The notes under the pieces were generated by a model. It was not told the DNA's origin. It did not search any database and saw only the letters and a list, made by a program, of their open reading frames with translations. Position numbers and translations under genes: made by a program. Below are positions 2,990-39,903 of a DNA stretch of 64,000 nucleotides, one piece after another; within the stretch, counting starts at the first letter, position 1; every line of letters starts with the position of its first letter. Source of the DNA: Amycolatopsis thermoflava N1165 (lineage in GTDB: Bacteria; Actinomycetota; Actinomycetes; Mycobacteriales; Pseudonocardiaceae); assembly GCF_000473265.1 (NCBI RefSeq), contig NZ_KI421511.1:4191560-4255559 (forward strand), written 5' to 3'.

Positions 2990-4632
2990 CAGGCGACCTC
3001 CAGTTCCTTGTCGGGGGCGAACTTCGGCATGCCGAGCGGCACGGAACCCTTGGGCGGCCGCCACGCGCTGGGCTTGCAGGCGTCCCGGCAGGCGGCCTCG
3101 GTCGAGCAGCACAGGGAGCAGATCGTGCCGCCGTGGAAGGGGCAGGTCGCCATGTCCGCGCGGTCGTAGCTGCCCGCGCACACCGAGCACGGCAGCTCGT
3201 CTCCGGCGGGCAGCACCGACTCGCGGGCGACGTACCAGCGTCCGCGGGTGGCGGCGGCCACGACCGGCGGCAGGACCACCGCGACGCCCAGCGCGATGAA
3301 CGGCGACAACGCGGCCGCTGTCGGGCCGAACGCGCCGTAGTAGGCGACCATCGACACGGCGCCGGCGACGATCATCGACCCGAACCCGACGGGGTTGACG
3401 TGGTAGAGGTGCGCGCGGTGGAACACCAGCTGCGGCGGGGCCAGCTTCAGCCACTTCTTGTTGATCACCAGGTCGGACACCATCGCCGCGATCCACGCGA
3501 CGCCGACGTTCGAGTACCAGGCGAGCACCTCGACGATGTGGCTGAAGATGTCGATCTCCATCAGCGCCAGGGACAGCCCGACCTGCAGGAACACCCACGC
3601 GGCGCGCCCGGGGTGGCGGTGCAGCAGCCGGGAGAAGAAGTTCGACCAGGACAGCGACCCCGAGTAGGTGTTCATGATGTTGATCTTGATCTGGGACAGC
3701 AGCACCAGTACCCCGGCGAGGACCAGCGCGACGGTGTGGTTCCCGGTCAGCCGCTCGTAGACGGCGGTGAACAGGTCCACCGGCACCCCGACGTGATCGG
3801 CGCCGATCTTCGTCGAGGCGTACCCGACCAGCAGCGTCGAGGCGAAGAAGATGCCCACCGCGAACAACGCGAAGCCGGGCCCGCCCATGATCACCGCGAG
3901 CCGCCACCGCCCCCGCCTGCCGGGTTCGGGGTCGGGCATCAGCCGCAGGTAGTCGCCCTGCTCCCCCACCTGGGTGGCCAGCGACAGCTGCGCGGCGGCG
4001 ATCGTGAACACCGCGAGCACGGTCATCCCGGCCAGACCGGACGGCGACACGGTCGCCGGGTGGACCATGTTGTGCCCGGCGTCCGGCGCGGTCGCCGCGG
4101 TGCCCAGCGCCAGCCCGATCAGCGCGATCCAGACCGGCCACGTCCAGGCCTGGAACTTCGCGCTGAACGTCATCCCGTACAGGGTCAGCGGGATCATCAC
4201 CGCGGACACCACGACGTAGGACAGGTGGATGTCCAGCCCGGTCAACGCGGTCACCGCCTGCGCCATGATCGCGCCCTCGTAGGCCAGGAAGATCAGCGTG
4301 TAGGTGGCGTAGACCAGCGAGGTCAGCGTGGATCCGAGGTAGCCGAAGCCGGAGCCGCGGGTCAGCAGGTCGATGTCCACGTGCCCGCGGGCGATCGCGA
4401 ACGCGATCACCAGGGTCAGCGGCAGCGTCACGGCCGCGGCGACCAGGAAGCCGGTGAGCGCGTTGGCGAAGCCGAACGCGTCGACGAACGCGGCGTCGAG
4501 CGCGTAGCCCGCCATCGCGGAGATGCCGACGAGGCAGGACAGGAACACCATCCACGGCGACCACTTCCGGAACGCCGCCGGGGTGTACCGCAGTGAGTAG
4601 TCTTCCATTTCCGGGTTGTCAGCGAGGCCCAT
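2989..4632 (-). CDS. NCS1-family purine/cytosine-type permease with Cys-rich tail
   Basis: A 547-residue membrane protein with about twelve hydrophobic segments and the NCS1 N-terminal pattern ([20 protein letters not shown]). NCS1 transporters import nucleobases, hydantoins, allantoin and similar compounds. The last ~75 residues are unusual: a soluble segment with CSVC, then [13 protein letters not shown] and further Cys, resembling a metal- or redox-binding knuckle. Start at 4632 is supported by GAAGGGATC about 6-9 nt upstream; an upstream in-frame start at 4701 has no good ribosome site. It heads the operon, which diverges from ilvD. Confidence 0.88.
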
Positions 4633-4845
4633 ATCCGATCCCTTCGCTCGGGTGCGGCGAAAGTTAGGAATCGCGTATTTCGGCCGCGTATCCGACGGCA
4701 TTGCGCCCGGTTACGCCGCTTCTCACTCTCCGGACACCGCGCTGACCTGCGGTTTTCGTCACGCGGGGAGGTGATGCGCCGAATTCGGTGTGGGATGGGC
4801 CGCCGGTTGATCGGGACGCGCGGGACCCGGCGTAATCTGGCTGGC
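4633..4845. promoter_or_regulatory. Divergent intergenic region, permease operon / ilvD
   Basis: This 213-bp gap separates the permease operon (minus) from ilvD (plus). The ilvD side ends in a TAATCT -10 box. On the permease side only the ribosome site is clear. I saw no strong palindrome attributable to the GntR regulator. Confidence 0.5.
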
Positions 4846-4848
4846 ATG
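4833..4848 (+). promoter_or_regulatory. Leaderless-type promoter of ilvD
   Basis: TAATCT at 4833-4838 is followed by 7 nt and the ATG, with no Shine-Dalgarno sequence between. The transcript is predicted to begin at or next to the start codon. Confidence 0.6.
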
Positions 4849-6690
4849 CCTGCTCTGCGCTCCCGAACAACCACCCATGGCCGCAACGCCGCGGGCGCCC
4901 GGTCCCTCTGGCGGGCCACCGGGCTGACCGACGGCGACTTCGGCAAGCCGATCGTCGCGATCGCCAACTCCTACACCCAGTTCGTGCCCGGGCACGTGCA
5001 CCTCAAGGACCTCGGTGACATCGTGGCCGGGGCGATCCGCGAGGCCGGTGGCGTGGCGCGCGAGTTCCACACGATCGCGGTGGACGACGGCATCGCCATG
5101 GGGCACAGCGGCATGCTCTACTCGCTGCCCTCGCGCGAGATCATCGCCGACTCGGTCGAGTACATGGTCAACGCGCACCAGGCCGACGCGCTGGTCTGCA
5201 TCTCCAACTGCGACAAGATCACCCCGGGCATGCTGAACGCCGCGATGCGGCTGAACATCCCGGTGGTGTTCGTGTCCGGCGGCCCGATGGAGGCCGGCAA
5301 GGCGGTGGTCGTGGACGGCGTCGCGCACGCGCCGACCGACCTGATCACCAGCATCTCCGCCTCGGCGAACCCCGCCATCGACGAGGACGGGCTGTCCATT
5401 GTGGAGCGGTCCGCGTGCCCGACGTGCGGGTCGTGCTCGGGCATGTTCACCGCGAACTCGATGAACTGCCTGACCGAGGCGCTGGGCCTGTCGCTGCCGG
5501 GCAACGGCTCGACGCTGGCCACGCACGCCGCGCGCCGCAAGCTGTTCGAGGACGCCGGCCGCACGGTCATGGAGCTGTGCAAGCGCTGGTACGGCGAGGA
5601 CGACGACAGCGTGCTGCCGCGCTCGATCGCCAACCGCAAGGCGTTCGAGAACGCGATGGCGCTGGACATGGCGATGGGCGGCTCGACCAACACGGTGCTG
5701 CACATCCTGGCCGCGGCGCAGGAGGGCGAGGTCGACTTCACGATCTCCGACATCGACGAGATCGGCCGCCGCGTGCCGTGCCTGTCGAAGGTCGCGCCGA
5801 ACTCCGACTACCACATGGAGGACGTGCACCGGGCCGGCGGCATCCCGGCGATCCTCGGCGAGCTGAACCGGGCCGGGCTGCTCAACCGGGATGTCACTGC
5901 TGTGCACTCCTCTTCGCTGGAGCAGTGGCTGTCCACGTGGGACATCCGCGGCGGGTCGCCGTCGCCGGAGGCGATCGAGCTGTTCCACGCCGCGCCGGGC
6001 GGGGTCCGCACCACGGAGGCGTTCTCGACGTCGAACCGGTGGACCGAGCTGGACACGGACGCGGCCAACGGCTGCATCCGCGACATCGAGCACGCCTACA
6101 CCAAGGACGGCGGGCTCGCGGTGCTGCGCGGCAACCTGGCCGAGAACGGCGCGGTGATCAAGTCCGCGGGCATCGACGAGGAGCTGTGGCGGTTCCAGGG
6201 CCCGGCGCGTGTGGTCGAGAGCCAGGAGGAGGCCGTCTCGGTCATCCTGAGCAAGAAGATTCAGCCGGGTGAGGTGCTCGTGGTCCGCTACGAGGGTCCG
6301 GCAGGCGGCCCTGGCATGCAGGAGATGCTGCACCCGACGGCGTTCCTCAAGGGCGCCGGGCTGGGCAAGAAGTGCGCGTTGATCACCGACGGCCGGTTCT
6401 CCGGCGGCTCGTCCGGGATCTCGGTCGGGCACATCTCGCCGGAGGCCGCGTCGGGCGGCACGATCGGCCTGGTCCAGGACGGCGACCAGATCCTGATCGA
6501 CGTACACGAGCGGAAGCTGGAGCTGCTGGTGGACGCCGACGTGCTGGCCGAGCGCCGGGCGAAGATGGAGGCCTCGGAGCGGCCGTGGCAGCCGGTGGAG
6601 CGCCAGCGGCCCGTGACCGCGGCCCTGCGCGCCTACGCGCGGATGGCCACCTCCGCCGACACGGGCGCGGTGCGCGACCCGAACAAGTAG
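4846..6690 (+). CDS. ilvD: Dihydroxy-acid dehydratase
   Basis: This enzyme dehydrates 2,3-dihydroxy-isovalerate and -methylvalerate to the 2-keto acids, the third common step of valine/isoleucine synthesis. At 614 residues it is the length of E. coli IlvD (616). The Fe-S ligands are present: Cys122 in [11 protein letters not shown] and the cluster [11 protein letters not shown] at 191-201. The ATG at 4846 is favoured over an earlier in-frame ATG because the -10 box lies just 7 nt upstream and homology begins there. It stands alone, followed by an excellent intrinsic terminator. Confidence 0.97.
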
Positions 6691-6701
6691 GCCTGACGAC
6701 G

Positions 6702-6736
6702 AAGGGCCCCGGCTGCGAGCAGCCGGGGCCCTTTTT
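6702..6736 (+). terminator. Rho-independent terminator of ilvD
   Basis: A perfect 14-bp stem (left arm AAGGGCCCCGGCTG, loop CGAG) runs into a T5 tract immediately after ilvD. In the opposite direction the T tract is short, so it works mainly for ilvD but may also shield the convergent doxX gene. Confidence 0.93.
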
Positions 6737-6742
6737 CGTTGT

Positions 6743-7363
6743 TCAGCGCGCCAGCACGATGACCACGACGGCCGCCGCGGCGGCGATCAGCAGGAAGAAC
6801 AACCCGAACGGCACCGGGCGGCGCCGCCACGGGGTGTTGACGTCCAGCGCGATCCGTCCGGAGCCGGTGAACAGCAGCGCGAACGCCACAGTCGCCAGCA
6901 GCAGCTCGAACTCGAACCCGTTCGGCTCGAAGAACCCGCCGCGCCACTGGACGTAGATCATGTTCACGGTGACGCCGAGGATCGCGGCGGCGCCGATCTG
7001 GGTGAACAGGCCCAGCACGACGAGCACCGCGCCGATCAGTTCGCTCAACCCGGTGACCCACGCGAGCAGCGTCGGCTGGGCCGTGTAGCCCATCGACTCC
7101 AGCATCCGCGCCGTGCCGTCGATGCCGGGGCCGCCGAACAGCCCGAACACCTTCTGCAACCCGTGCGCGCCGAGGATCGCCCCGAGCGCGAGCCGCAGCG
7201 CGAGCAGACCGAAGTCGATCCCGCCGTGGTAGCGGTTCACCGGCGGTGACGGCCGGTCCTCGACGTCGGAGAGCATGCTGGTGCTGCTGCTCTCGGTGGG
7301 CTGGTAGTACCCGGATTCCGTGAACAGGTTCTGGGTCTTCGACTCGTCCTGAGGGCTGGCCAC
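6743..7363 (-). CDS. DoxX-family membrane protein
   Basis: A 206-residue protein with a polar N-terminus of about 45 residues, then four to five transmembrane helices. The core LGAILGAHGLQKVFGLFGG is typical of DoxX/DoxD. In M. tuberculosis a DoxX protein (Rv3005c) next to LppZ takes part in a membrane oxidoreductase complex that counters thiol and oxidative stress; the same two genes are near each other here, so it is a plausible orthologue, though shorter. The GTG start has TAACCT 6 nt upstream (leaderless). Confidence 0.85.
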   Translation of the reverse strand: MASPQDESKTQNLFTESGYYQPTESSSTSMLSDVEDRPSPPVNRYHGGIDFGLLALRLALGAILGAHGLQKVFGLFGGPGIDGTARMLESMGYTAQPTLLAWVTGLSELIGAVLVVLGLFTQIGAAAILGVTVNMIYVQWRGGFFEPNGFEFELLLATVAFALLFTGSGRIALDVNTPWRRRPVPFGLFFLLIAAAAAVVVIVLAR

Positions 7364-7375
7364 CCGCGCAGGTTA
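7361..7375 (-). promoter_or_regulatory. Leaderless-type promoter of doxX
   Basis: On the minus strand TAACCT (7370-7375) is followed by 6 nt and the GTG start. No ribosome-binding sequence is present. Confidence 0.6.
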
Positions 7376-7424
7376 GGCCATCCGGGTCGGAAGCGCGACA
7401 GTTTCCGGGGCATCGAGCGGGTGC

Positions 7425-8501
7425 TCAGCTGCCGAACACCGACATGATGAGCGCGCCCAGCGCCGCGGGGAACACCTGTGCCGGGTCCGCCTCGCCGGTG
7501 GTCAGTGTCGCCGTCAGGGTCCGGCTGCCGTCCGGCGTGCTGATCATCAGGGCGCCGTAGCCGCCGGGGGCGCCGCCGTTGTGGTGCACGATCGTGCCCG
7601 CCGGGCCGAGGTCCTGCACCCACAGGCCCAGACCGAGGTTGAGCTCGCCGTGCGGGGTGAGCATCTCGGCCAGCAACGGGGCGGGCAGGAGCCGGCCGCC
7701 GAGCAACGCGGAGATGAAGGTGTTCAGGTCTTCGGCGGTCGAGATCAAGTCGCCCGCGCCGGCCAGCAGGGAGGGGTTCTGGCGGCTGACGTCGACGACG
7801 TGCCACTCGCCGCCGTCCTCGTAGCGGTAGTAGCCGTGGGCGTGCGGTCCGGGGAGGTCCGGCGAGGTCGCCGACACGACGGTGTCCGCCAGGCCGAGCG
7901 GCCCGAGGATGCGCCGCTGGGCCTCCTCGGCGAAGGTGTTGCCGGTGACGGCCTCGATCAGCAGCAGGGCGACGGTGTAGTTGGTGTTGGAGTAGCTCTG
8001 GCCCTCGCCCGGCTCGAACCGCGGCGGCCGCGACAGCGCGAACCGCACTAGCTCCTCGGGGCGGTAGGTGTGGAAGCGGTTGTCCACCCACGCCCGGCCC
8101 TGCGACGGAAGCCCCATCACGAAGGTGCCGTCGGCGTCGGGCTCGCCGGTGTAGTTGTAGAGGCCGCTGGTGTGCTGCAACAGCATCCGAACGGTGATCC
8201 GCTCGTCGAACCCGAACCCGGGCAGGTGACCGGCGACCGGGCCGTCCAGCTCGATCCGGCCCTCGTCCACCAGCTGGAGCACCAGCGTCGCGGTGAAGGT
8301 CTTCATGACGCTGCCCGCCCAGCCCTGCGCGCCCGCGGGCGGCTCGGCGGTCCCACCCAGCTCGCTCACGCCGGCCCGGCCGGTCCAGCGGCCGCGGTCG
8401 TCGCGGACGCACAACTCGGCGGCGGCGAACCCGGCGTCGACGAGGGCCTGGACGGCCTGCTGCAACTCGGGGCGGTGCGTGATGGTGGCGGTGTTCTGCA
8501 T
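7425..8501 (-). CDS. Serine hydrolase, beta-lactamase/DD-peptidase family
   Basis: A 358-residue class C beta-lactamase-fold protein with all three catalytic motifs: S64-V-M-K67 (SxxK), YSN in SYSNTNY, and H-N-G in HHNGGAPGG. No signal peptide is visible, so it may be a cytoplasmic esterase or peptidase rather than a secreted penicillin-binding enzyme. The ATG at 8501 follows AGGAGCGCACG with normal spacing; longer in-frame starts are unsupported. It is transcribed alone. Confidence 0.87.
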   Translation of the reverse strand: MQNTATITHRPELQQAVQALVDAGFAAAELCVRDDRGRWTGRAGVSELGGTAEPPAGAQGWAGSVMKTFTATLVLQLVDEGRIELDGPVAGHLPGFGFDERITVRMLLQHTSGLYNYTGEPDADGTFVMGLPSQGRAWVDNRFHTYRPEELVRFALSRPPRFEPGEGQSYSNTNYTVALLLIEAVTGNTFAEEAQRRILGPLGLADTVVSATSPDLPGPHAHGYYRYEDGGEWHVVDVSRQNPSLLAGAGDLISTAEDLNTFISALLGGRLLPAPLLAEMLTPHGELNLGLGLWVQDLGPAGTIVHHNGGAPGGYGALMISTPDGSRTLTATLTTGEADPAQVFPAALGALIMSVFGS

Positions 8502-30166: not shown

Positions 30167-31372
30167 GTGAAACGCACCGCCTGGCTCGCCGCCTGGCCGG
30201 TCCTCGCCGTGTTCGTCCTGTCCAACGCCCCGACCCCGGTCTACGTGCTGTGGCAACGCGAACTCGGCTTCTCCGCCGGCGTCCTGACATTCGTCTTCGC
30301 GTGCTACATCGCGGGCCTGCTCGCCGCGCTCCTGGTCGCGGGCGTGCTCTCGGACCGGATCGGGCGCAAACCGGTCCTGCTGCCCGCGCTCGCGCTGGGC
30401 ATCATGGCGTGCGTCCTCTTCGCGACGGCAGGTTCGGTGCTCGTGCTCGCGGTCGCGCGGTTCCTCACCGGGCTCGCGGTGGGCGCCGCCGTCTCCGCGG
30501 GCATGGCCGCGGTGAACGACGTCGCCCCGGGAAAGGGCAAGACCGCGGCGCTGGCGTCGTCGACCGCGATGGTCCTCGGCGCCGGTCTCGGGCCGCTGCT
30601 GGCTGGTGTCGCGTCGGAAACCCTGCCGGGGCCGACGGTGACGATCTTCCTCGCCGAGATCGTCCTGCTCGTCTCCGCCGGGATCGTCGTCGCCCGGCTG
30701 CCGCTGCCCCGCCCGGTGGGCACCACCCGCGCCTGGATCCGGATCCCGCAGGTCCACCCCGCCGGCCGCAGCGCGGTCCTGCGCGGCGTCGCCGTGTTCG
30801 CGCCGGGCATCACGGCCACTTCGTTCGTGCTCTCGCTCGGCCCGTCCGTCCTCACCGAACTGCTGGACACCACCAACCGGATCGTCGCCGGGGCACTCGC
30901 GTTCGTCATGTTCCTCGGCGCGACGGGCGTTCAGTTCGCGGTGCGCGGCCTGCCGGTGCGGGCGATCCTGCTCGCCGGCGCCGCCTCGACCACGGCCGGC
31001 ATGGTCGCGCTGGTCGTCTCCCTGCAGACCGCGTCGCCGGCCCTGCTGGCGGTCGCCGCGGTGCTCGCCGGGACCGGTCAGGGCATGGGCCAGTTCGGCG
31101 GCCTCACCCTGATCAACGCGAGCGTCCCGGCGAACCGGCTCGCCGAGGCGACCGCCGCGCAGAACGTCGGCGGCTACGTGCCCGCCGCGGTCCTGCCGCT
31201 CGCCGCCGGGTTCCTCAGCGACGCCGCCGGCCTCGCGACCGGCGCGACCGCGTTCGGCGCCGTCGTGATCGCCGCGGCCTTGGCGGGCAGCCTCGTCGCG
31301 GGACGAGGCCGCCCTGCCCGTCAGGTCGCCGCCTCCACCGGGCTGCGGAACTGCGCCGAGTACAGCCGGTAG
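30167..31372 (+). CDS. MFS exporter
   Basis: A 401-residue major facilitator with twelve hydrophobic segments and the loop 2-3 signature GVLSDRIGRKPVLLP. Probable drug or metabolite efflux pump. GTG start behind AGGAGGAG. Its last 52 nt are antisense to the end of the convergent ABC transporter gene, so the C-terminal ~17 residues are constrained by both frames. Regulated by the divergent ArsR protein through O1/O2. Confidence 0.9.
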   Translation: MKRTAWLAAWPVLAVFVLSNAPTPVYVLWQRELGFSAGVLTFVFACYIAGLLAALLVAGVLSDRIGRKPVLLPALALGIMACVLFATAGSVLVLAVARFLTGLAVGAAVSAGMAAVNDVAPGKGKTAALASSTAMVLGAGLGPLLAGVASETLPGPTVTIFLAEIVLLVSAGIVVARLPLPRPVGTTRAWIRIPQVHPAGRSAVLRGVAVFAPGITATSFVLSLGPSVLTELLDTTNRIVAGALAFVMFLGATGVQFAVRGLPVRAILLAGAASTTAGMVALVVSLQTASPALLAVAAVLAGTGQGMGQFGGLTLINASVPANRLAEATAAQNVGGYVPAAVLPLAAGFLSDAAGLATGATAFGAVVIAAALAGSLVAGRGRPARQVAASTGLRNCAEYSR

Positions 31373-33243
31373 TAGGCGCCGCCCGCGGCGAGCAGCTCCT
31401 CGTGCGTGCCCTGCTCCACGATCCGCCCCGACTCCATCACCAGGATGAGGTCGGCGTCGCGGATCGTGGACAGGCGGTGCGCGATCACGAACGACGTGCG
31501 GTCGGTGCGCAGCGCCGCCATCGCCTGCTGCAGCAGCGCCTCGGTGCGGGTGTCGACCGAGCTGGTGGCCTCGTCGAGGATCAGCAGCGACGGATCGGCG
31601 AGGAACGCCCGCGCGATCGTCACCAGCTGCTTCTCCCCCGCGCTGAGGTTGGTGCCCTCGTCGTCGATCACCGTGTCGTAGCCGTCGGGCAGGCTGCGCA
31701 CGAACCGGTCCACGAACGTGGCCCGCGCGGCCGCCTCCACCTGCTCCGGCGTCGCCGACGGGTTGCCGTAGGCGATGTTGTCCCGGATCGTGCCGTTGAA
31801 CAGCCAGGTGTCCTGCAGCACCATCCCGGTCTGGCCGCGCAGGTCGTCGCGGGTCATCGCGGTGATGTCCACGCCGTCGAGCGTGATCCGCCCGGCGTCC
31901 AGCTCGTAGAACCGCATGATCAGGTTCACCAGCGTGGTCTTGCCCGCCCCGGTCGGCCCGACGATCGCCACCGTCTGCCCCGGCTCGGCGACCAGCGACA
32001 GGTCCTCGATGAGCGGCCGCTGCGGGTCGTAGGAGAAGTCCACGTGCTCGAACTCCACCCGGCCGCGGCGCCGCTCCGGCAGGACCGGGGACGCGGTGTC
32101 CGGCTTCTGCTCCGCCGCGTCGAGCAGCTCGAAGACCCGCTCGGCGGAGGCGACGCCGGACTGCAGCAGGTTCGCCAGCGACGCCGCCTGGGTCAGCGGC
32201 TGCGTGAACTGGCGCGAGTACTGCAGGAACGCCTGCACGTCGCCGAGCGTCATCGTCCCCGTCGCGACCCGCAGCCCGCCGACGACCGCCAGCACGACGT
32301 AGCTGAGGTTCGACAGGAACATCATCGCCGGCATGATGATCCCGGAGATGAACTGCGCGCCCATGCCGGCCCGGTAGAGGTCGGCGTTGCGGCGCCCGAA
32401 CTCCTGCTCCACCTCGCGGCGCCGGCCGAACACCGTGACCAGCTCGTGCCCGCTGAACGCCTCCTCGATGTGCGCGTTGAGGGCGCCGGTGTGCTTCCAC
32501 TGGGCCACGAACAGCTTCTGCGAACGCTTCCCGATCACCCTGGTCAGCACGATCGACGCGGGCACCACCAGCAACGCGATCACGGCGAGCAGCGGCGACA
32601 CCACGAACATCATCACCAGCACGCCGATCAGCGACAGCAGCGACGTGAGCAGCTGGCTCAGGGTCTGCTGCAGCGTCAGCGCGATGTTGTCGATGTCGTT
32701 GGTGACGCGGGACAGCAGTTCCCCGCGCGGCTGCCCGTCGAAGTACCGCAACGGCAACCGGTGCAGCTTCGCCTCGACGTCCTCGCGCAGCCGGTACACC
32801 ACGCGCTGCACGGCGCCGTTGAGCAGGTAGCCCTGCAGCCAGCCGAACACCGACGCCGCCACATACAGCACCAGCACCCAGGACAGCACCCGGCCGAGGG
32901 CGGCGAAGTCGATGCCCGCGCCCGGCACCACGTCCATCCTCGCGAGCATGTCGGCGAGGTTGGTGTTGCCCTCGGCACGCGCCGCCGCGATCGCCTGCTC
33001 GGTGGTGGTGCCCGCGGGCAGGCGGCTGGAGACGAACCCGCCGAAGATGATGTCGGTGGCGTGACCGAGGATCTTCGGCCCCACCACGGTGAACGCGACG
33101 CTCGCGACGCCGAGCGCGACCACGAACACGAGCGTGAGCCGCTCCGGGCGCAGCCTGCCCATCAGGCGGCGGGCGCCCTCGCCGAAGCTCTTCGGCTTCT
33201 GCACCGGCCCGGCGGGAGCGCCGGGAAAACCTGGTCTGGTCAC
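31321..33243 (-). CDS. ABC exporter, heterodimer half with canonical ATPase site
   Basis: A 640-residue transmembrane-domain plus ATPase half-transporter. Six membrane helices span about 30-350 with an unusually long first external loop (about 60-110). The ATPase has Walker A GPTGAGKTTLV, signature NLSAGEKQ (LSAGE, not LSGGQ), Walker B LLILDEATSSVD with the catalytic Glu, and H-loop IAHRLSTI. Its GTG overlaps the stop of the upstream ABC gene (GTGA), indicating a heterodimer. Controlled with its partner by the divergent TetR. Confidence 0.92.
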   Translation of the reverse strand: MTRPGFPGAPAGPVQKPKSFGEGARRLMGRLRPERLTLVFVVALGVASVAFTVVGPKILGHATDIIFGGFVSSRLPAGTTTEQAIAAARAEGNTNLADMLARMDVVPGAGIDFAALGRVLSWVLVLYVAASVFGWLQGYLLNGAVQRVVYRLREDVEAKLHRLPLRYFDGQPRGELLSRVTNDIDNIALTLQQTLSQLLTSLLSLIGVLVMMFVVSPLLAVIALLVVPASIVLTRVIGKRSQKLFVAQWKHTGALNAHIEEAFSGHELVTVFGRRREVEQEFGRRNADLYRAGMGAQFISGIIMPAMMFLSNLSYVVLAVVGGLRVATGTMTLGDVQAFLQYSRQFTQPLTQAASLANLLQSGVASAERVFELLDAAEQKPDTASPVLPERRRGRVEFEHVDFSYDPQRPLIEDLSLVAEPGQTVAIVGPTGAGKTTLVNLIMRFYELDAGRITLDGVDITAMTRDDLRGQTGMVLQDTWLFNGTIRDNIAYGNPSATPEQVEAAARATFVDRFVRSLPDGYDTVIDDEGTNLSAGEKQLVTIARAFLADPSLLILDEATSSVDTRTEALLQQAMAALRTDRTSFVIAHRLSTIRDADLILVMESGRIVEQGTHEELLAAGGAYYRLYSAQFRSPVEAAT

Positions 33244-34973
33244 GCCGCTTCCTCCGCGGTGAGCTGGGACTCCACGATTTCGAGGTAGGTGGGGCAGTCA
33301 CGCAGCAGCTCCGCGTGCGTGCCCAGCCCGACGATCTCCCCGTTCTCCAGCACGACGATCTGGTCGGCGCCGACGATCGTGGAAACCCGTTGCGCCACCA
33401 CGATCACCGCCGCATCCGCGGTGTGCGGGGCCAGCGCGGCGCGCAGCCGGGCGTCGGTGGCCAGGTCGAGCGCCGAGAACGAGTCGTCGAACAGGTACAC
33501 CTCCGGTTTGCGCACCAGCGCCCGCGCGATCGCGAGCCGCTGCCGCTGCCCGCCGGAGACGTTCGTGCCGCCCTGCGCGATCGGGGCGTCCAGGCCGCCG
33601 GGCATCTCCGCCACGAACTCCCGCGCCTGCGCGATCTCCAGCGCCTGCCACAGTTCTTCGTCGGTGGCGTCCGGTTTCCCGTAGCGCAGGTTGCTCGCCA
33701 CGGTGCCGGTGAACAGGTACGGCCGCTGCGGCACCAGCCCGATCCGGCTCCACAGCACGTCCGGGTCGAGTTCCCGCACGTCGACGCCGTCGACCAGGAC
33801 GCGGCCTGCCGTCGCGTCGAACAACCGCGGCACCAGCGACAGCAGCGTGGTCTTGCCCGCGCCGGTGCTGCCGATGATCGCGGTGGTCTTCCCGGCCTCC
33901 GCGCGGAAACCGATGTCCCGCAGCACCGGTGCGTCCGCGCCCGGGTAGCGGAATTCGACCCCCTGGAACTCGACGGCGCCGTGTTCGGCGACCTCCCGCA
34001 CCGGGCGCAACGGCGGCCGCACCGACGACTCGGTGTCCAGCACCTCGGCGATGCGCTCGGCGCAGACGGACGCGCGCGGGATCATCGTCGCGATGAAGGT
34101 GGCCATGGTGACCGACATGAGGATCTGGATCAGGTAGTTCAGGAACGCCGTGAGCGCCCCGATCTGCATCTCGCCGCCGGCCACCCGGTGCGCGCCGAAC
34201 CACAGCACGGCGACGCTGCTGGCGTTCATCACCAGCAGCACCGTCGGGAAGATGACCGCCTGCAGGCGGCCGACGCGCAGCGCGGTGACGGTCAGCTCGT
34301 CGTTCGCGACGGCGAACCGGCGCACCTCGTCCCGCTCGCGCACGAACGCCCGCACCACGCGGATGCCCGACAGCTGTTCCCGCAGCACGCGGTTGACGCG
34401 GTCGATGCGGGTCTGCATCAGCCGGAACTGCGGCACCATGCGCGACACCACGAGCCCGATGGCCGCCAGCAGCACCGGCACCGCGACCAGCAGCAGCCAG
34501 GACAGCCCGACGTCCTGGCGCAGCGCGAGCACGATGCCGCCGACGCACATGATCGGCGCCACGATCAGGATCGTGCAGCCCATCACCACGATCAGCTGCA
34601 CCTGCTGCACGTCGTTGGTGGTGCGGGTGATCAGCGACGGCGCCCCGAACTGCGCCACCTCGCGCGCGGAGAACCCGCCGACCCGGTGGAAGACGGCGGC
34701 CCGCACGTCGCGCCCGAAACCGGCCGCGCTGCGCGCGCCGAAGTACACCGCCGCGACGGAACAGGCGATCTGCAGCACCGTCACGGCCAGCATCCAGCCG
34801 CCCGCCGAGAGGATGTAACCGGTGTCGCCGGTGGCGACGCCGTGGTCGATGATGTCGGCGTTGAGGCTCGGCAGGTACAGCGACGCGATGGTGCCCGCGA
34901 GCTGCAGCACCACCACCGCGGCGAGCGCTCGCCAGTACGGACGTAGGAATGTCCGCAATATCCGGTTGAGCAC
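33240..34973 (-). CDS. ABC exporter, heterodimer half with degenerate ATPase site
   Basis: A 577-residue partner of the downstream ABC half. Walker A GSTGAGKTTLL and signature NVSGGQRQ are normal, but Walker B is VYLFDDSFSALD with Asp replacing the catalytic Glu, and the H-loop is VAQRVSTI with Gln replacing His. This is the hallmark of the non-hydrolytic site in asymmetric heterodimers such as TM287/288. The GTG at 34973 follows AGGGGGAATT; an in-frame extension to 35063 would cross the regulatory region and is rejected. Confidence 0.92.
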   Translation of the reverse strand: MLNRILRTFLRPYWRALAAVVVLQLAGTIASLYLPSLNADIIDHGVATGDTGYILSAGGWMLAVTVLQIACSVAAVYFGARSAAGFGRDVRAAVFHRVGGFSAREVAQFGAPSLITRTTNDVQQVQLIVVMGCTILIVAPIMCVGGIVLALRQDVGLSWLLLVAVPVLLAAIGLVVSRMVPQFRLMQTRIDRVNRVLREQLSGIRVVRAFVRERDEVRRFAVANDELTVTALRVGRLQAVIFPTVLLVMNASSVAVLWFGAHRVAGGEMQIGALTAFLNYLIQILMSVTMATFIATMIPRASVCAERIAEVLDTESSVRPPLRPVREVAEHGAVEFQGVEFRYPGADAPVLRDIGFRAEAGKTTAIIGSTGAGKTTLLSLVPRLFDATAGRVLVDGVDVRELDPDVLWSRIGLVPQRPYLFTGTVASNLRYGKPDATDEELWQALEIAQAREFVAEMPGGLDAPIAQGGTNVSGGQRQRLAIARALVRKPEVYLFDDSFSALDLATDARLRAALAPHTADAAVIVVAQRVSTIVGADQIVVLENGEIVGLGTHAELLRDCPTYLEIVESQLTAEEAA

Positions 34974-35006
34974 AATTCCCCCTAGGAACGGTCGGTATCC
35001 ACTGTG

Positions 35007-35036
35007 TAGGCTACGCCCGTAAGAAACGCAACGTTT
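35007..35036. promoter_or_regulatory. TetR operator and -10 box between ABC operon and tetR
   Basis: TAGGCT at 35007-35012 is a plausible plus-strand -10. The inverted repeat AAACG-CAA-CGTTT at 35024-35036, extended by A/T-rich flanks, lies in the early transcribed region of tetR and near the ABC start. Confidence 0.6.
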
Positions 35037-35049
35037 TTTAGGAGGGTGG

Positions 35050-35661
35050 GTGCCGGAGCCCAAGTCGAGGCGTCACGGGGCCGAACTGGAGGCCGCGATC
35101 CTGGACGCGGCGTGGGCCGAACTCGTCGAGGTCGGGTACGCGAGACTGACCATGGAAGGCGTCGCGGCCCGCGCGGGCACCAGCAAACCGGTGGTCTACC
35201 GGCGCTGGCCCGGACGCCCCGAACTGGTCCTCGCCGCGTGGCGCCGTCGCATCCCGGACGCCGACAACCCGCCCGACCTCGGTGACCTCCGCTCGGATTT
35301 GCTGGCATTCCTGCATCGATTGGTGCACCGGTTTCACGACACGCCCCGCGATGTGCTGGCCGGACTGATGAGCGAAACGTTCCGGGACCCGGAGGTTTTC
35401 GCTTTGCTGCTGAAGCAGATAGCGGCCGCGAAACACCGCCCCACCTTCGAAACCATCGTGCGCAGAGCCGTGGCACGCGGCGAACTCCCGCCCGTCGAGA
35501 TCACCCCGCGCGTCGCACGCGTCCCCCTTGACCTCGTCCGTGCCGAAGCAATCTTCCACCACGGGGAAATCGACGAGAAAACGATTACCGAGATTGTCGA
35601 CGAAGTCTTCCTCCCCCTGTTGCGCGGATTGGCGCACAAGGAGTTCGATGGGGAGGAATGA
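35050..35661 (+). CDS. TetR-family regulator of the ABC exporter
   Basis: A 203-residue TetR protein: N-terminal HTH LTMEGVAARAGTSKPVVYRR, then a TetR_C-type ligand domain. The divergent ABC exporter, with a dyad in the shared promoter, points to local repression and drug-induced export. GTG at 35050, 4 nt after AGGAGG. Confidence 0.9.
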   Translation: MPEPKSRRHGAELEAAILDAAWAELVEVGYARLTMEGVAARAGTSKPVVYRRWPGRPELVLAAWRRRIPDADNPPDLGDLRSDLLAFLHRLVHRFHDTPRDVLAGLMSETFRDPEVFALLLKQIAAAKHRPTFETIVRRAVARGELPPVEITPRVARVPLDLVRAEAIFHHGEIDEKTITEIVDEVFLPLLRGLAHKEFDGEE

Positions 35662-35730: not shown

Positions 35731-36498
35731 ATGAGCACCGCTGGACGGGTCCTGATCCGGCAACGGGAAGTCGCCGGGTGCACCGTCGTCGACCTCGCCG
35801 GCCGGCTGAACGCCCGGACCTACGGGGAACTCCGGGACAACCTGATCAAGCTCACGCTGGACCAGCCGCGGGCGTTGATCGCACAGGTCGACGACCTCGA
35901 CATCGCCGGGGAGCCCGCGCTGGCGGTCTTCTCCGCCGTCCGGATGCGCACCGACGAGTGGCCGTCCGTGCCGGTGCTGCTCGTCGCGCACGACCCGGAG
36001 CGGCACCGGATGATCGCAGGCAGCGCCATCCGCCGGTTCGTCCCGGTCCACACCTCCCTCAACGCGGCGATCGAGGCAGTGGCGGAGCCGCCGCCCCGGC
36101 GACGGCGGAATGCCGTCTTCCTCCCGCTCCCCAGCAGTTCGCACGGCGCGCGGGCGTTCGTCCAGGAGACCTGTCGCGACTGGAACATCCGGCACCGGCT
36201 GGAGGACGCGCTCGGCATCGCCACCGAACTGGTCGAGAACGCGATCACGCACGCGGGCACGGCGCTGGAGGTCCGGCTCGAGCTGCGCACGGGTTACCTG
36301 ACCATCGCCGTCCGGGACGAGGACCCGCACCCGGCCGTCCTGCGCCAGCGGCCGAGCGGCCGGCTGCAGGGCTACGGCCTGCAGGTCATCGCCGCCCTGT
36401 CCCGGGCCTGGGGCTGCTCCCCCGCCCAGGACGGCGGGAAGATCGTCTGGGCCGTGCTCAGCGTCGGTCCCCGTCGCCTCGCGCCGTTCCCTGTTTGA
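35731..36498 (+). CDS. STAS-HATPase fusion (antagonist plus RsbW-like kinase)
   Basis: A 255-residue fusion: residues 5-115 form a STAS domain, 130-245 an RsbW/SpoIIAB-type ATPase with N-box ELVENAITHAG, G1 VRDEDPHPAV and G2 GRLQGYGLQVIAAL. STAS and kinase are usually separate partner-switching proteins. The STAS core reads LDIAGEPALAVF, where canonical antagonists have DSSG, so the phosphorylatable Ser is missing. Probably a signalling component for the adjacent CheR/CheB genes. Its last 41 nt overlap the convergent cheR. No good ribosome site was found (GGAGG is 13 nt away). Confidence 0.85.
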   Translation: MSTAGRVLIRQREVAGCTVVDLAGRLNARTYGELRDNLIKLTLDQPRALIAQVDDLDIAGEPALAVFSAVRMRTDEWPSVPVLLVAHDPERHRMIAGSAIRRFVPVHTSLNAAIEAVAEPPPRRRRNAVFLPLPSSSHGARAFVQETCRDWNIRHRLEDALGIATELVENAITHAGTALEVRLELRTGYLTIAVRDEDPHPAVLRQRPSGRLQGYGLQVIAALSRAWGCSPAQDGGKIVWAVLSVGPRRLAPFPV

Positions 36499-38371
36499 CC
36501 TCCGGCAGCGCGTCCGAAATCCCGTCGAGGGTTTCCATCACCAGGATCGCGCCCGCCGACTCACCGCGGCGGTTGCGCAACGCGCCGCAGGCGATCCGGA
36601 CGGTGACCGAACGGCCGCGCCGGTTGACCGCCTCGAGCACGACCTGCTCGGTGAAGGACGCGTCGGCGAGGGCGGGCCGCACGACCGGGCGCAGCTCCGC
36701 CACCGGCAGCCCGATGTCGAGGTTCAGCAGGTGCTCGCCCTCGGCCTCCTCCGAGCGCAGTCCCCACAGGTCCTCCGCGCCCGCGTTCCAGGCGACCACG
36801 CGCATCTGCTGGTCCACCACCACGACGCCGGCCTGCAGCGAGGTCAGTACCGACTCCAGGAACTCGTTGACGTCGTCCAGTTCGCTGGTGCGGTCCCGCA
36901 ACGTGTTGTTGATCGTCTGCAGCTCGTCGTTGGTGGACTGGAGTTCCTCGTTGGTGGTCTCCAGTTCCTCGTTGGTCGACTGGAGTTCCTCGTTCGTCGT
37001 CTCCAGCTCCTCGACCGTCGACTGCAGTTCCTCGTTCGTCGTCTCCAGTTCCTCCGTCGTGGACTGCAGCTCCTCGTAGGCGTTCTCGCGCTGCCGGTTC
37101 GCGCTCGCCAGCTCGGCCAGCAGGCGGTGGTTCGTGGTGACGTCGTGGAACACCACCGACACGCCGACGATGTCGTCGGTCAGCGAGACCAGTGGGCTGA
37201 TGTGCAGTTCCAGCGCCAGCACCTCCCCCGGCCCGCGCTGCCACTCCACGTCCTTGACCCGCACGGCGCGCCGGTCCACGCGCACCTGTTCGATGTAGGA
37301 CCGCAGTTCGACCGGCCGGTAGGAGATCTCCAGGTCCCGCAGCGGGCGGCCGATGTCGCGGTCGGTCAGGCCGAACACCTGCTGCGCCTGCTGGTTGGCC
37401 AGCGCGACGACGTCGTCGGCCGTCACCACGACCTGCGCGAGCGGGTTCGAGTCGAACGTCAGCGCACGCAGCTCGTCGATCTGGTCCAGTGAGCTCCGGC
37501 GCTCCGGGATCAGGGGGTGGCCGAACGGCGAGGCGCCCGCGATCGCCGTCGGCACCTTGCGGAAGATCCGGTAGCGCAGGTTCACCGGGTCGAAGATGCG
37601 GCTGTGCGACAGCAGCATTTCGGCCTTGCCCATGAACAGCACCCCGCGCGGCACGAGCGCGAAGTGCAGTTTCCGCAGGATGTTCGTCTGGGTGTCGGCG
37701 GTGAAGTACATCAGGGTGTTGCGGCAGACGAGCAGGTCGATGCGGGAGATGGGCGCGTCCTGGACCAGGTCGTTGCGGCCGAAGATCACCGACCGCCGCA
37801 GGTCCTTGTGGAAGACGTACCGGCCCGCGGTGCGCTCGAAGTAGCGCTGCACGTACTCCGACGGGAGGTCTTCCACGTCCTTCGCGGTGTAGGCGGCCTG
37901 CCGGGCCTGGGCCAGCGCCTCCTCGTCGACGTCGGTCGCGTAGATCTTGACCCGCTGCCGGAACTGCTCCAGTCCCAGCACCTCGGCCAGCACGATGGCC
38001 AGGCTGTAGGCCTCCTCGCCGGAGGCGCAGCCCGCGCTCCACACCCGGATCTGGTCGTCGGGCGAGCGCTCGGCGAGGATCATCGGCACGATGTCCGACT
38101 GCAGGTAGTCCCACGCGTCGGGGTCGCGGAAGAAGTTCGTGACGTTGATCAGGATCGTGTTGAACAGCGCGCCGAACTCGTCGCTGTTGGCCTGCAGGTG
38201 ATCGAGGTAGTCTCCGTAGTCCTCGCAGCTGATGACGCTCATCCGGCGTCCGACGCGGCGCATGAGGCTACTGCGCTTGTACCCGGTGAAGTCGAATCCG
38301 CGCGTTTCCTTCAGGTATTCGAGGATGGCCTCGAAACCCTCGTCCGTCGCAGGCTCGATCTGCTCGTTCAC
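36458..38371 (-). CDS. cheR: CheR-type methyltransferase with PAS domains and coiled coil
   Basis: A 637-residue protein: CheR N-terminal helices and SAM-dependent methyltransferase (1-270; VWSAGCASGEEAYSLAIVLA at 110-129), PAS 1 (305-415), a coiled coil (418-500) of near-identical repeats such as EELETTNEELQST, and PAS 2 (500-615). In chemotaxis CheR methylates glutamates on receptors, but no receptor is encoded here, so the target is unknown. The coiled coil probably transmits PAS signals. The GTG has TAAGGT 7 nt upstream, within a palindrome. cheB follows on the same strand. Confidence 0.92.
   Translation of the reverse strand: MNEQIEPATDEGFEAILEYLKETRGFDFTGYKRSSLMRRVGRRMSVISCEDYGDYLDHLQANSDEFGALFNTILINVTNFFRDPDAWDYLQSDIVPMILAERSPDDQIRVWSAGCASGEEAYSLAIVLAEVLGLEQFRQRVKIYATDVDEEALAQARQAAYTAKDVEDLPSEYVQRYFERTAGRYVFHKDLRRSVIFGRNDLVQDAPISRIDLLVCRNTLMYFTADTQTNILRKLHFALVPRGVLFMGKAEMLLSHSRIFDPVNLRYRIFRKVPTAIAGASPFGHPLIPERRSSLDQIDELRALTFDSNPLAQVVVTADDVVALANQQAQQVFGLTDRDIGRPLRDLEISYRPVELRSYIEQVRVDRRAVRVKDVEWQRGPGEVLALELHISPLVSLTDDIVGVSVVFHDVTTNHRLLAELASANRQRENAYEELQSTTEELETTNEELQSTVEELETTNEELQSTNEELETTNEELQSTNDELQTINNTLRDRTSELDDVNEFLESVLTSLQAGVVVVDQQMRVVAWNAGAEDLWGLRSEEAEGEHLLNLDIGLPVAELRPVVRPALADASFTEQVVLEAVNRRGRSVTVRIACGALRNRRGESAGAILVMETLDGISDALPEVKQGTARGDGDRR
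36890..37085 (-). repeat. 42-bp-period repeats encoding the CheR coiled coil
   Basis: Near-identical DNA blocks encode successive 14-residue double heptads of ELQST-NEE-LETTN type (residues about 430-490). They are in frame and coding, and could vary in number by slippage, changing coiled-coil length. Confidence 0.7.
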
Positions 38372-38391
38372 GTTGCGGACCTTACAAGGTC
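38369..38391 (-). promoter_or_regulatory. cheR promoter with 14-bp palindrome over the -10 box
   Basis: Minus-strand TAAGGT (38379-38384), 7 nt, GTG: leaderless type. The -10 lies inside the palindrome GACCTT-AC-AAGGTC (38378-38391), which touches the cheB stop. It may be an operator of an unknown regulator. Confidence 0.5.
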
Positions 38392-39433
38392 AGGCTGTTT
38401 CGTCCGAGGCGCCGTCCGGCAGGTCCGTCACGGTGGGCAGCCCCTCGAACAGGAACTTCCGCAGCACCGTCGCCGCGTGGCCCGCTTCGTCGCGGTGCCG
38501 GGAGTAACGCCCGGCGACCAGGGGGTAACCGCGGTGTTCGGCGTCCTGCGTCATCCGGCCCGCCAGGTCCCGCTTCTCCTCGAGCGCGCGCAGAGCCGCC
38601 CACAGCGCCTGCTCGATGTCGCGGGACTGCTGCTGGAAGAGGGCTTTCGCCGTCCAGGCATGGCCGACGCGGCAGCGGTACCGGGTGCCCTCCTTGTCGA
38701 GTGAGAACAGCACGCCCTGACAGTCCGGGCACCCCAGGCCCGATGGCTCGGTCACGTCGAGCACCTCCAGCGAGACCGCGTTGCCCGGACCGTCGGACCG
38801 GGCGATGCGTGCTTCGATCTCCTCGATCAGGGGCACGGGTTCGTCGTCGCGCACCTCGACCGGCTCCCGCACCCGACCGGCCAGCACGCGGCCGATCTCC
38901 ACGGCGGGAACCACATGGTCCGGGGCCACCCTGGCCATCGCGTTCTCCGGCATCGCCGGGTAGATGGCGTCCTCCGGGTCCTGCACGATCGCGAGCCCGC
39001 CGCGGGACTTGATCGTGTCCAGCCCGGTCGAACCGTCGTCGAGCGAGCCGGAGAGCACCACGCCGATCACCGCGGGACCGTGCGAGAGGGCCGCGGACCG
39101 GAACAACGCGTCGACCGCGGGCCGGTACCCGTTCTCGGTGGGACCGCGCGAGAGCCGGCACACACCGTCCTCGACGAGCAGGTGGTGGTCCGGCGGGGCG
39201 ACGTAGATCCGCCCGTGCCGCAACGGCTCGCCGGAGCTGGCCGCCACCGCGGGCAGCGAGCCGGACCGGCTCAGGATCGCAGGCAGCGCGCTGGCGCCGC
39301 CGGGGGGCAGGTGCAGCACGACCAGGACCGCGGCGGGCAGGTCCCCGGGGAGACCACCGGCGAAACTGCGCAGCGCCTCGACTCCGCCGGCCGAAGCGCC
39401 GACGACGACGATGTCCCTGAACCGTTCGGCCAC
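38390..39433 (-). CDS. cheB: CheB-type methylesterase with C-terminal zinc-ribbon-like tail
   Basis: A 347-residue CheB catalytic domain without the usual response-regulator domain. Triad: Ser14 in VGASAGG, His41 in VVLHLPPGG and Asp133 in SLDDGSTG. The C-terminal part has CPDCQGVLFS and YRCRVGHAW, a zinc-ribbon-like module seen in actinobacterial CheB homologues. It would remove the methyl groups added by CheR. The GTG at 39433 has GGAAGG 9 nt upstream; an alternative GTG is at 39469. It lies upstream of cheR on the same strand, but cheR has its own promoter. Confidence 0.9.
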   Translation of the reverse strand: MAERFRDIVVVGASAGGVEALRSFAGGLPGDLPAAVLVVLHLPPGGASALPAILSRSGSLPAVAASSGEPLRHGRIYVAPPDHHLLVEDGVCRLSRGPTENGYRPAVDALFRSAALSHGPAVIGVVLSGSLDDGSTGLDTIKSRGGLAIVQDPEDAIYPAMPENAMARVAPDHVVPAVEIGRVLAGRVREPVEVRDDEPVPLIEEIEARIARSDGPGNAVSLEVLDVTEPSGLGCPDCQGVLFSLDKEGTRYRCRVGHAWTAKALFQQQSRDIEQALWAALRALEEKRDLAGRMTQDAEHRGYPLVAGRYSRHRDEAGHAATVLRKFLFEGLPTVTDLPDGASDETA

Positions 39434-39504
39434 CAGAATGCGCCTTCCGCGAGGGTCCCGAGTCCGCACCTCCGACGGTAGCCCCTTTCGCGGTGGTCAG
39501 CAGA

Positions 39505-39852
39505 TCATGGAGCCACGGCCTCGCACACGGACTCGTAGCGCGGCAGGATCGAGGTCAGGCCGGTGAGGTCGAGGACGCGGTCCGCGCGGCAGCTGCGCGG
39601 CGCGACCAGACGCAGCTCCCGCCCACGTCCGCACACCTCGAGCATGGCCTGCACACCGGCGGCGCTGAGGAACGCGACCCGGGTCAGGTCGAGCACGACG
39701 GTCCCGGGTTGTTCGGCGAGTGCCTCGGCGAGCCGCGGCGCGGTGGACAGGTCGATCTCGCCGGTCGCGTGGACGACGGACATCCCGGACCGGTACTCGA
39801 CGGCAAGGTCCAGCAGACGCTCGGTGAGCGGCGTGCGCGGCTCGTCGGACAC
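39505..39852 (-). CDS. Stand-alone STAS-domain protein
   Basis: A 115-residue STAS domain (anti-sigma-factor antagonist fold): SVVHATGEIDLSTAPRLAEA, then VVLDLTRVAFLSAAGVQAML. The canonical D-S-S-G phosphorylation site reads S-A-A-G, so phosphorylation by an RsbW-like kinase is not expected. The GTG at 39852 follows GAGGGGGCG and lies downstream of the likely transcript start (TAGCAT at 39906-39911). It is the last member of the STAS/CheR/CheB island. Confidence 0.85.
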   Translation of the reverse strand: MSDEPRTPLTERLLDLAVEYRSGMSVVHATGEIDLSTAPRLAEALAEQPGTVVLDLTRVAFLSAAGVQAMLEVCGRGRELRLVAPRSCRADRVLDLTGLTSILPRYESVCEAVAP

Positions 39853-39903
39853 CAGGTTCGCCCCCTCGGCACGTGGTCGCGTCTCCGGCCGGAACCGGAC
39901 CAC

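Follow-up and report, generated by a model that had tools for sequence, protein, structure and literature searches.

A CheR-CheB gene cassette linked to an anti-sigma-like STAS-HATPase in Amycolatopsis thermoflava and related actinomycetes: a candidate route from protein methylation to partner switching

We analyzed a 64,000-nucleotide (nt) stretch of the Amycolatopsis thermoflava N1165 genome (contig NZ_KI421511.1, positions 4,191,560 to 4,255,559; the window) that carries a locus of four genes encoding a STAS-HATPase fusion, a CheR methyltransferase, a CheB methylesterase and a lone STAS protein (Table 1). An original prediction from the sequence had described these products, with CheR carrying two PAS domains and a heptad coil and CheB lacking a receiver domain, and all four were borne out by Pfam searches and alignments. 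The minus-strand genes are ordered STAS, CheB and CheR, with intergenic gaps of 35 nt and then 18 nt, and the plus-strand STAS-HATPase gene is convergent with CheR, overlapping its end by 41 nt. Three of the products, CheR, CheB and the STAS-HATPase, we assign with high confidence to one signalling module.

Table 1. Features of the four-gene locus, in coordinates of the window
Feature	Position	Strand	Details
STAS-HATPase fusion	35731..36498	+	255 aa, P0001; anti-anti-sigma-like STAS half and SpoIIAB/RsbW-like ATPase half
CheR methyltransferase, PAS - heptad coil - PAS	36458..38371	-	637 aa, P0002; Pfam CheR 5.9e-53, CheR_N 1.7e-17, two PAS stretches; alignments
CheR EE-heptad coil, residues 432-484, proposed methyl-accepting helix	36920..37078	-	conservation, 52 sequences
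Receiver-less CheB methylesterase, cysteine-containing C-terminal part	38390..39469	-	359 aa, P0003; Pfam 1.6e-53
Stand-alone STAS protein	39505..39903	-	132 aa, P0004; Pfam 4.2e-10

Linkage of the three genes was examined in several samples. In a first sample of 120 genomes of the family, the CheR query matched 46 at an E-value of 1e-3, and a single CheR match over about 600 residues was found in 29 of these, A. thermoflava included. Among the loci nearest to the window (L033-L052), a STAS-HATPase gene adjoins CheR in 20 of 20 and CheB is present in 18 of 20, one fragmented. Named relatives were the best 80 of at least 575 confirmed CheR relatives, a sample that is biased because it is made up of the nearest relatives; STAS-HATPase was located within 2.2 kb of CheR in 76 of these loci, CheB within 2.5 kb in 77, and both in 73. 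A larger search of the family detected CheR at 1e-60 in 144 of 390 genomes, and 80 further stretches were fetched from that list. The resulting linkage set comprised 153 loci, with 112 stretches from the family plus 41 named loci from other families; the remaining 39 named loci, which come from the window's own family or order and of which several were taken to be the same assemblies, were left out. After removal of nine loci in which CheR was not full-length, 144 remained, and in these a full-length STAS-HATPase was found at most 300 nt from CheR in 118 and at most 2.2 kb from it in 126, with CheB within 2.5 kb in 120 of the latter. Chance neighbourhood was rejected on the basis of this recurrence (73 of 80 and 126 of 144 loci). 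The co-occurrence put forward in the original prediction was thus upheld for CheR, CheB and STAS-HATPase; the lone STAS, the fourth gene of the set, was kept least consistently (35 of 80 named loci, with sigma-fused STAS domains included in the count).

Carriers of the cassette include Pseudonocardiaceae, Mycobacterium, Nocardia, Actinoplanes and Dactylosporangium. The gene order seen most often is CheB - STAS-HATPase - CheR on a single strand, and the CheB and STAS-HATPase genes overlap in 33 of 40 tandem cases, as judged from script-picked start codons. The convergent arrangement of the window is also present in other Amycolatopsis, Nocardia and Actinokineospora. A fusion of the STAS-HATPase and CheR genes was suspected at one locus (L041) and dropped, as a stop codon separates the two. 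Unless they reflect sequencing errors, the broken or decayed CheR copies detected at L061-L064 suggest that some Pseudonocardiaceae are losing the cassette. STAS-HATPase relatives were also observed at four loci of order-level relatives (L164, L167, L168 and L169), where neither CheB nor CheR was recognised within the fetched 14 kb, and in another family (L165, about 3560-8122) near a gene 62% identical to the sigma cluster, in a genome with no CheR match at 1e-60.

The 8.69-Mb genome of A. thermoflava was found by profile and protein searches to encode a single CheR and a single CheB, the closest named CheR being that of Amycolatopsis tucumanensis (94% identical). The CheW-like domain of CheA should register in a CheW profile search. 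Profile searches of the genome, in which CheA's own profile was not run, returned no match to the methyl-accepting chemotaxis protein (MCP) signalling domain, CheW or flagellin; the same three profiles were positive in 7, 7 and 4 of 14 control genomes, respectively. By these profiles, the lack of receptors and CheW noted in the original prediction extends to the whole genome, as does the lack of a flagellin, and no full chemotaxis operon lies elsewhere in it. MCP domains over the family cut-off were detected in 2 of 36 carrier genomes and CheW in the same two, leaving 34 with neither.

Both enzymes retain residues that we take to be functional. In 52 aligned CheR sequences, G114-C115, G118, E120, C216-R217-N218 and Y222, presumably involved in S-adenosylmethionine binding or catalysis, are invariant, as are S26, H53 and D145, presumably the catalytic triad, in 22 CheB sequences. 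CheB has no receiver and therefore would be outside CheA control. Its C-terminal part (window 38390-38872), of about 160 residues with a CPDC...CRVGHAW signature, is covered by no Pfam family and likely binds metal. This part is kept in cassettes with STAS-HATPase and in the AraC variants described below, and is absent from the short CheB of the GAF-ANTAR variant.

The coil is the most conserved part of CheR. In the 52 sequences, 45 of its 53 columns are invariant and its mean entropy is 0.05 bits, compared to 0.81 bits for the CheR catalytic domain and 1.1-1.4 bits for the PAS domains. Codon entropy, reflecting synonymous variation, is similar within and outside the coil; selection therefore acts at the protein level, and DNA-level homogenisation was rejected as the cause of this conservation. 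The coil is built from the unit EEL[QE][ST]T[NTV], which is similar to the methylation motif of chemoreceptors, for which the consensus is [ASTG][ASTG]XX[EQ][EQ]XX[ASTG][ASTG] (PMC6829392). Six coil heptads fit five of the six defined consensus positions, a pattern with a background rate of 0.19 per 1000 residues in the 324,009 residues of neighbouring reading frames.

Coil and CheB were also found with other outputs. At 14 of the loci with a full-length CheR, the stretch contains no STAS-HATPase match, and CheB is present in 13 of these. An AraC-type gene follows CheR in place of STAS-HATPase at L053-L056, and GAF-ANTAR genes, with domains partly under Pfam cut-offs, occupy this place at L057-L060 and L062; genes of both kinds are also near some STAS-HATPase cassettes, such as AraC in Mycobacterium. 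The EE-heptads are retained in the CheB-CheR operons that have no STAS-HATPase. Eight plasmid-record relatives, chosen among 60 listed out of 405, gave no STAS-HATPase match in the fetched stretch, and CheB is fused or close to CheR in seven of the eight. EE-heptads are present in seven (Nonomuraea, Rhizobium, Paraburkholderia, Methylocystis, Acidiphilium, Calothrix and Deinococcus), of which six belong to other phyla; the eighth is from Kovacikia, and its reading frame ends soon after CheR. The retention of EE-heptads and CheB where STAS-HATPase is absent indicates that CheR and CheB are the shared partners, and the differing outputs of related CheB-CheR pairs point to a substrate within the input itself. 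Likewise, CheB-CheR-PAS proteins of Proteobacteria, Cyanobacteria and Deinococcus (L150-L155) have an EE-heptad coil after CheR and a CheB match ahead of it, often with another CheB beside; unlike the cassette, they form one long chain, with no STAS-HATPase match in the 8-9 kb fetched.

The predicted folds of both STAS-HATPase halves fit partner-switch proteins, with the HATPase half resembling SpoIIAB, UsfX and RsbW among the structures listed in the comparison. ATP-site residues N170, D196 and G216 are invariant in 72 STAS-HATPases. The phospho-serine motif is not kept in the fused STAS half, where the loop is not conserved. In the lone STAS of the window, the closest solved structures of which are 4qtp and RsfB (8ih8), the phospho-acceptor position is alanine; several lone STAS proteins at other loci keep serine. 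A STAS partner with a phosphorylatable serine was not recognised at the locus, and such a protein may be encoded elsewhere in the genome.

Of 194 loci, with one assembly entering the count twice, 14 carry a sigma factor gene no more than 3.5 kb from CheR, and it is from this gene neighbourhood that we infer sigma-factor binding by the STAS-HATPase. A STAS match is in the same reading frame as the sigma factor in 10 of the 14 (seven Actinoplanes/Paractinoplanes and three Dactylosporangium; four Pfam-confirmed), such that a SigB/SigF-type sigma-STAS fusion adjoins the cassette in Actinoplanes and Dactylosporangium. The structures nearest to one of these sigma factors (L130) are 8x6g and sigma-F 1l0o. 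At the usual phospho-serine motif, all ten sigma-fused STAS domains read D-A-A. There is good support that the module ends at a SigB/SigF-type sigma factor in Actinoplanes and Dactylosporangium, and by extension it may do so in Amycolatopsis. The partner-switch half of the original prediction, in which methylation was joined to partner switching, is therefore backed by the sigma-STAS neighbours and the SpoIIAB/UsfX/RsbW-like fold, and its methylation half is carried by a putative CheR activity and substrate.

Eight flanking genes were scanned and found to encode two MFS transporters, two ABC exporter proteins, an acetyltransferase, a mechanosensitive-channel protein, a tRNA-modification protein and a class-V aminotransferase. 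The adjacent minus-strand ABC exporter pair and a plus-strand TetR gene (35050-35661) span 31321-35661 of the window. The TetR gene stops 69 nt upstream of STAS-HATPase, and a TetR gene also precedes STAS-HATPase at L034. Neither an RsbK-type hybrid kinase nor an RsbY phosphatase was found among the four genes, the TetR neighbour and the eight flanking genes.

The closest known parallel is in Bacillus cereus, where RsbM methylates the signalling helix (S-helix) of RsbK and SigB is repressed (PMC4574943); a genomic association of RsbK with CheR is credited to de Been et al. in PMC12848376. RsbK-RsbM-RsbY/SigB and the cassette share a methyltransferase, a coiled signalling helix and a SigB partner switch, predicted here from genes, and the CheR coil provides a candidate for such a helix. 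In B. cereus, however, the helix belongs to another protein, a hybrid histidine kinase acting through the RsbY phosphatase, and RsbM has, by its authors' account, no cognate methylesterase (PMC4574943). In the cassette, coil and PAS domains are on CheR itself, CheB is adjacent and STAS-HATPase replaces the kinase-phosphatase chain. The cassette is not a member of the RsbK-RsbM family, since no RsbK or RsbY was found beside it; by analogy, we propose that it may operate as a one-chain counterpart of RsbM-RsbK that brings an eraser of its own. With chemotaxis adaptation it shares the two enzyme families and a heptad helix in which small residues flank EE pairs (PMC6829392), and differs in a genome with no MCP or CheW match, a CheB with no receiver and a coil that misses one of the small residues required by the strict consensus. 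SpoIIAA/SpoIIAB-SigF, RsbV/RsbW-SigB and mycobacterial UsfX/RsfB-SigF (PMC10950880) resemble the cassette in the folds of both STAS-HATPase halves and in the SigB/SigF-type sigma factors that adjoin relatives from other genera; unlike these systems, STAS and ATPase are in one chain, the fused STAS does not keep the phospho-serine motif and D-A-A marks the sigma-fused STAS domains. No account of the four-gene architecture, with its own CheB and a coil on the methyltransferase, was found in open-access full text, subscription literature being mostly out of reach. The original suggestion of an undescribed system is too strong as a principle, because methylation feeding a sigma-B partner switch has been published (PMC4574943).

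On the basis of the gene linkage, predicted folds, retained residues, lack of receptor matches and sigma-STAS neighbours in other genera, we lean modestly toward a reading in which the level of glutamate methylation, set by PAS-gated CheR against CheB, adjusts an anti-sigma partner switch. The PAS domains of CheR would sense an intracellular cue (candidates are redox, a ligand or light) and gate methylation by the CheR domain, with the partner CheB opposing it. The most probable site of methylation would be the glutamate pairs of the EE-heptad coil on CheR itself, modified in cis or within a dimer; we rate the coil's role as methyl acceptor at about even chances or less. Methylation would shift the state of the coil, as it does in chemoreceptor adaptation, and the coil would in turn control the STAS-HATPase, which may hold or release a SigB/SigF-type sigma factor, in A. 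thermoflava one presumably encoded in its own genome, or the STAS partner of that factor. Candidate genes for a sigma factor of this type are at C1:2775162 and C1:5564187 of the genome. More tentatively, and short of an even chance, CheR-PAS may be a receptor and methyltransferase in a single chain that senses through its PAS domains and methylates its own EE-heptad helix while CheB erases the mark, providing a receptor-free memory with interchangeable outputs (anti-sigma switch, AraC or ANTAR).

Several observations weigh against the preferred reading. Of 72 STAS-HATPases, 19 lack the glutamate that aligns with the kinase base of SpoIIAB, and the sigma neighbour is absent from the window's own clade and from most loci. 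STAS-HATPase is also found without CheR, and in a sample of the phylum (396 genomes), 20 of the 27 genomes with CheR at 1e-60, more distant ones, show no two-domain STAS-HATPase adjoining it; in the other seven (the window's and six order-level relatives) it directly adjoins CheR. The strict receptor consensus is matched zero times in the window's coil, and 6 of 60 within-heptad reorderings would match the relaxed consensus equally. The coil also matches unrelated coiled-coil Pfam families, and for this reason eight further MCP-profile matches below the cut-off (in 8 of 36 genomes), all inside the CheR gene and spanning the coil, are not counted as proof and are a hint of receptor likeness only. 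Salmonella CheR, to our knowledge, lacks a comparable coil; in PMC8546571 it was not automethylated. Finally, the tie between CheB loss and coil erosion is weak and suggestive only: five or more coil deviations were found in 2 of 6 loci lacking CheB in the stretch vs 2 of 124 with CheB (Fisher p 0.01), in phylogenetically non-independent rows that include L034 and L049, the two loci from which the idea arose. The coil is eroded in these two and near intact in the other four CheB-less loci (0, 0, 1 and 0 deviations), and two CheB-bearing loci also have eroded coils. This count drew on 130 of the 153 loci, those in which a full-length CheR is accompanied by any STAS-HATPase match, at whatever distance within the stretch, 9 having been dropped for lack of a full-length CheR and 14 for lack of STAS-HATPase.

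Other explanations were weighed. CheR and CheB of the same module might modify the outputs directly (STAS-HATPase, lone STAS or sigma-STAS), the coil being only a dimerising or docking signalling helix. CheR methylation of a non-receptor protein is documented (PMC8546571), another modification could replace serine phosphorylation in the D-A-A domains, and the outputs of related CheB-CheR pairs vary; a common substrate across such diverse outputs is nevertheless hard to envisage, the near-total invariance of the coil would require another reason, and STAS-HATPase alignments show no standout invariant EE pair. We regard direct modification as unlikely, with an appreciable chance left to it. It is more improbable that the two enzymes act on a receptor-like protein elsewhere in the genome that was missed by the MCP profile. 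RsbK of B. cereus is a methylated sensor kinase and not an MCP (PMC4574943), and the genome search covered the MCP, CheW and flagellin profiles; yet besides CheR, CheB, STAS-HATPase and STAS, no neighbour family is present in more than 6 of the 36 stretches or more than 20 of the 80 loci, as called by a composition script that missed some genes, and the recurrent neighbours scanned include AraC, GAF-ANTAR, sigma and STAS.

A purely structural role, in which CheR and CheB are non-catalytic PAS-gated scaffolds and the signal passes by protein binding only, would fit the invariance of the coil as a platform and the existence of the decayed copies at L061-L064. The invariant CheR and CheB residues listed above and the joint retention of both enzymes argue for chemistry, and we give this role a small probability. 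A plain remnant of a lost chemotaxis operon is the most improbable reading and was rejected: CheR and CheB are core chemotaxis enzymes in a genome that shows no chemotaxis system, but the linkage, in the same few gene orders, recurs in many genera (73 of 80 named and 126 of 144 full-length-CheR loci), CheR has the special PAS-coil-PAS build, and the loci that look like ordinary chemotaxis or flagellar loci (L065-L067) encode a CheR only about 30% identical.

CheR and CheB in bacteria with no receptors are an unexplained annotation, for which the cassette offers a conserved, testable role. If the preferred reading is correct, Amycolatopsis, Actinoplanes and mycobacteria would have a methylation memory over stress sigma factors, and the cassette would supply the methylesterase reportedly missing from the RsbM system of B. 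cereus and point to what other CheR-PAS proteins may methylate. If the single-chain reading also holds, the presence of EE-heptad coils in such proteins across several phyla would make it a general, unrecognised signalling principle.

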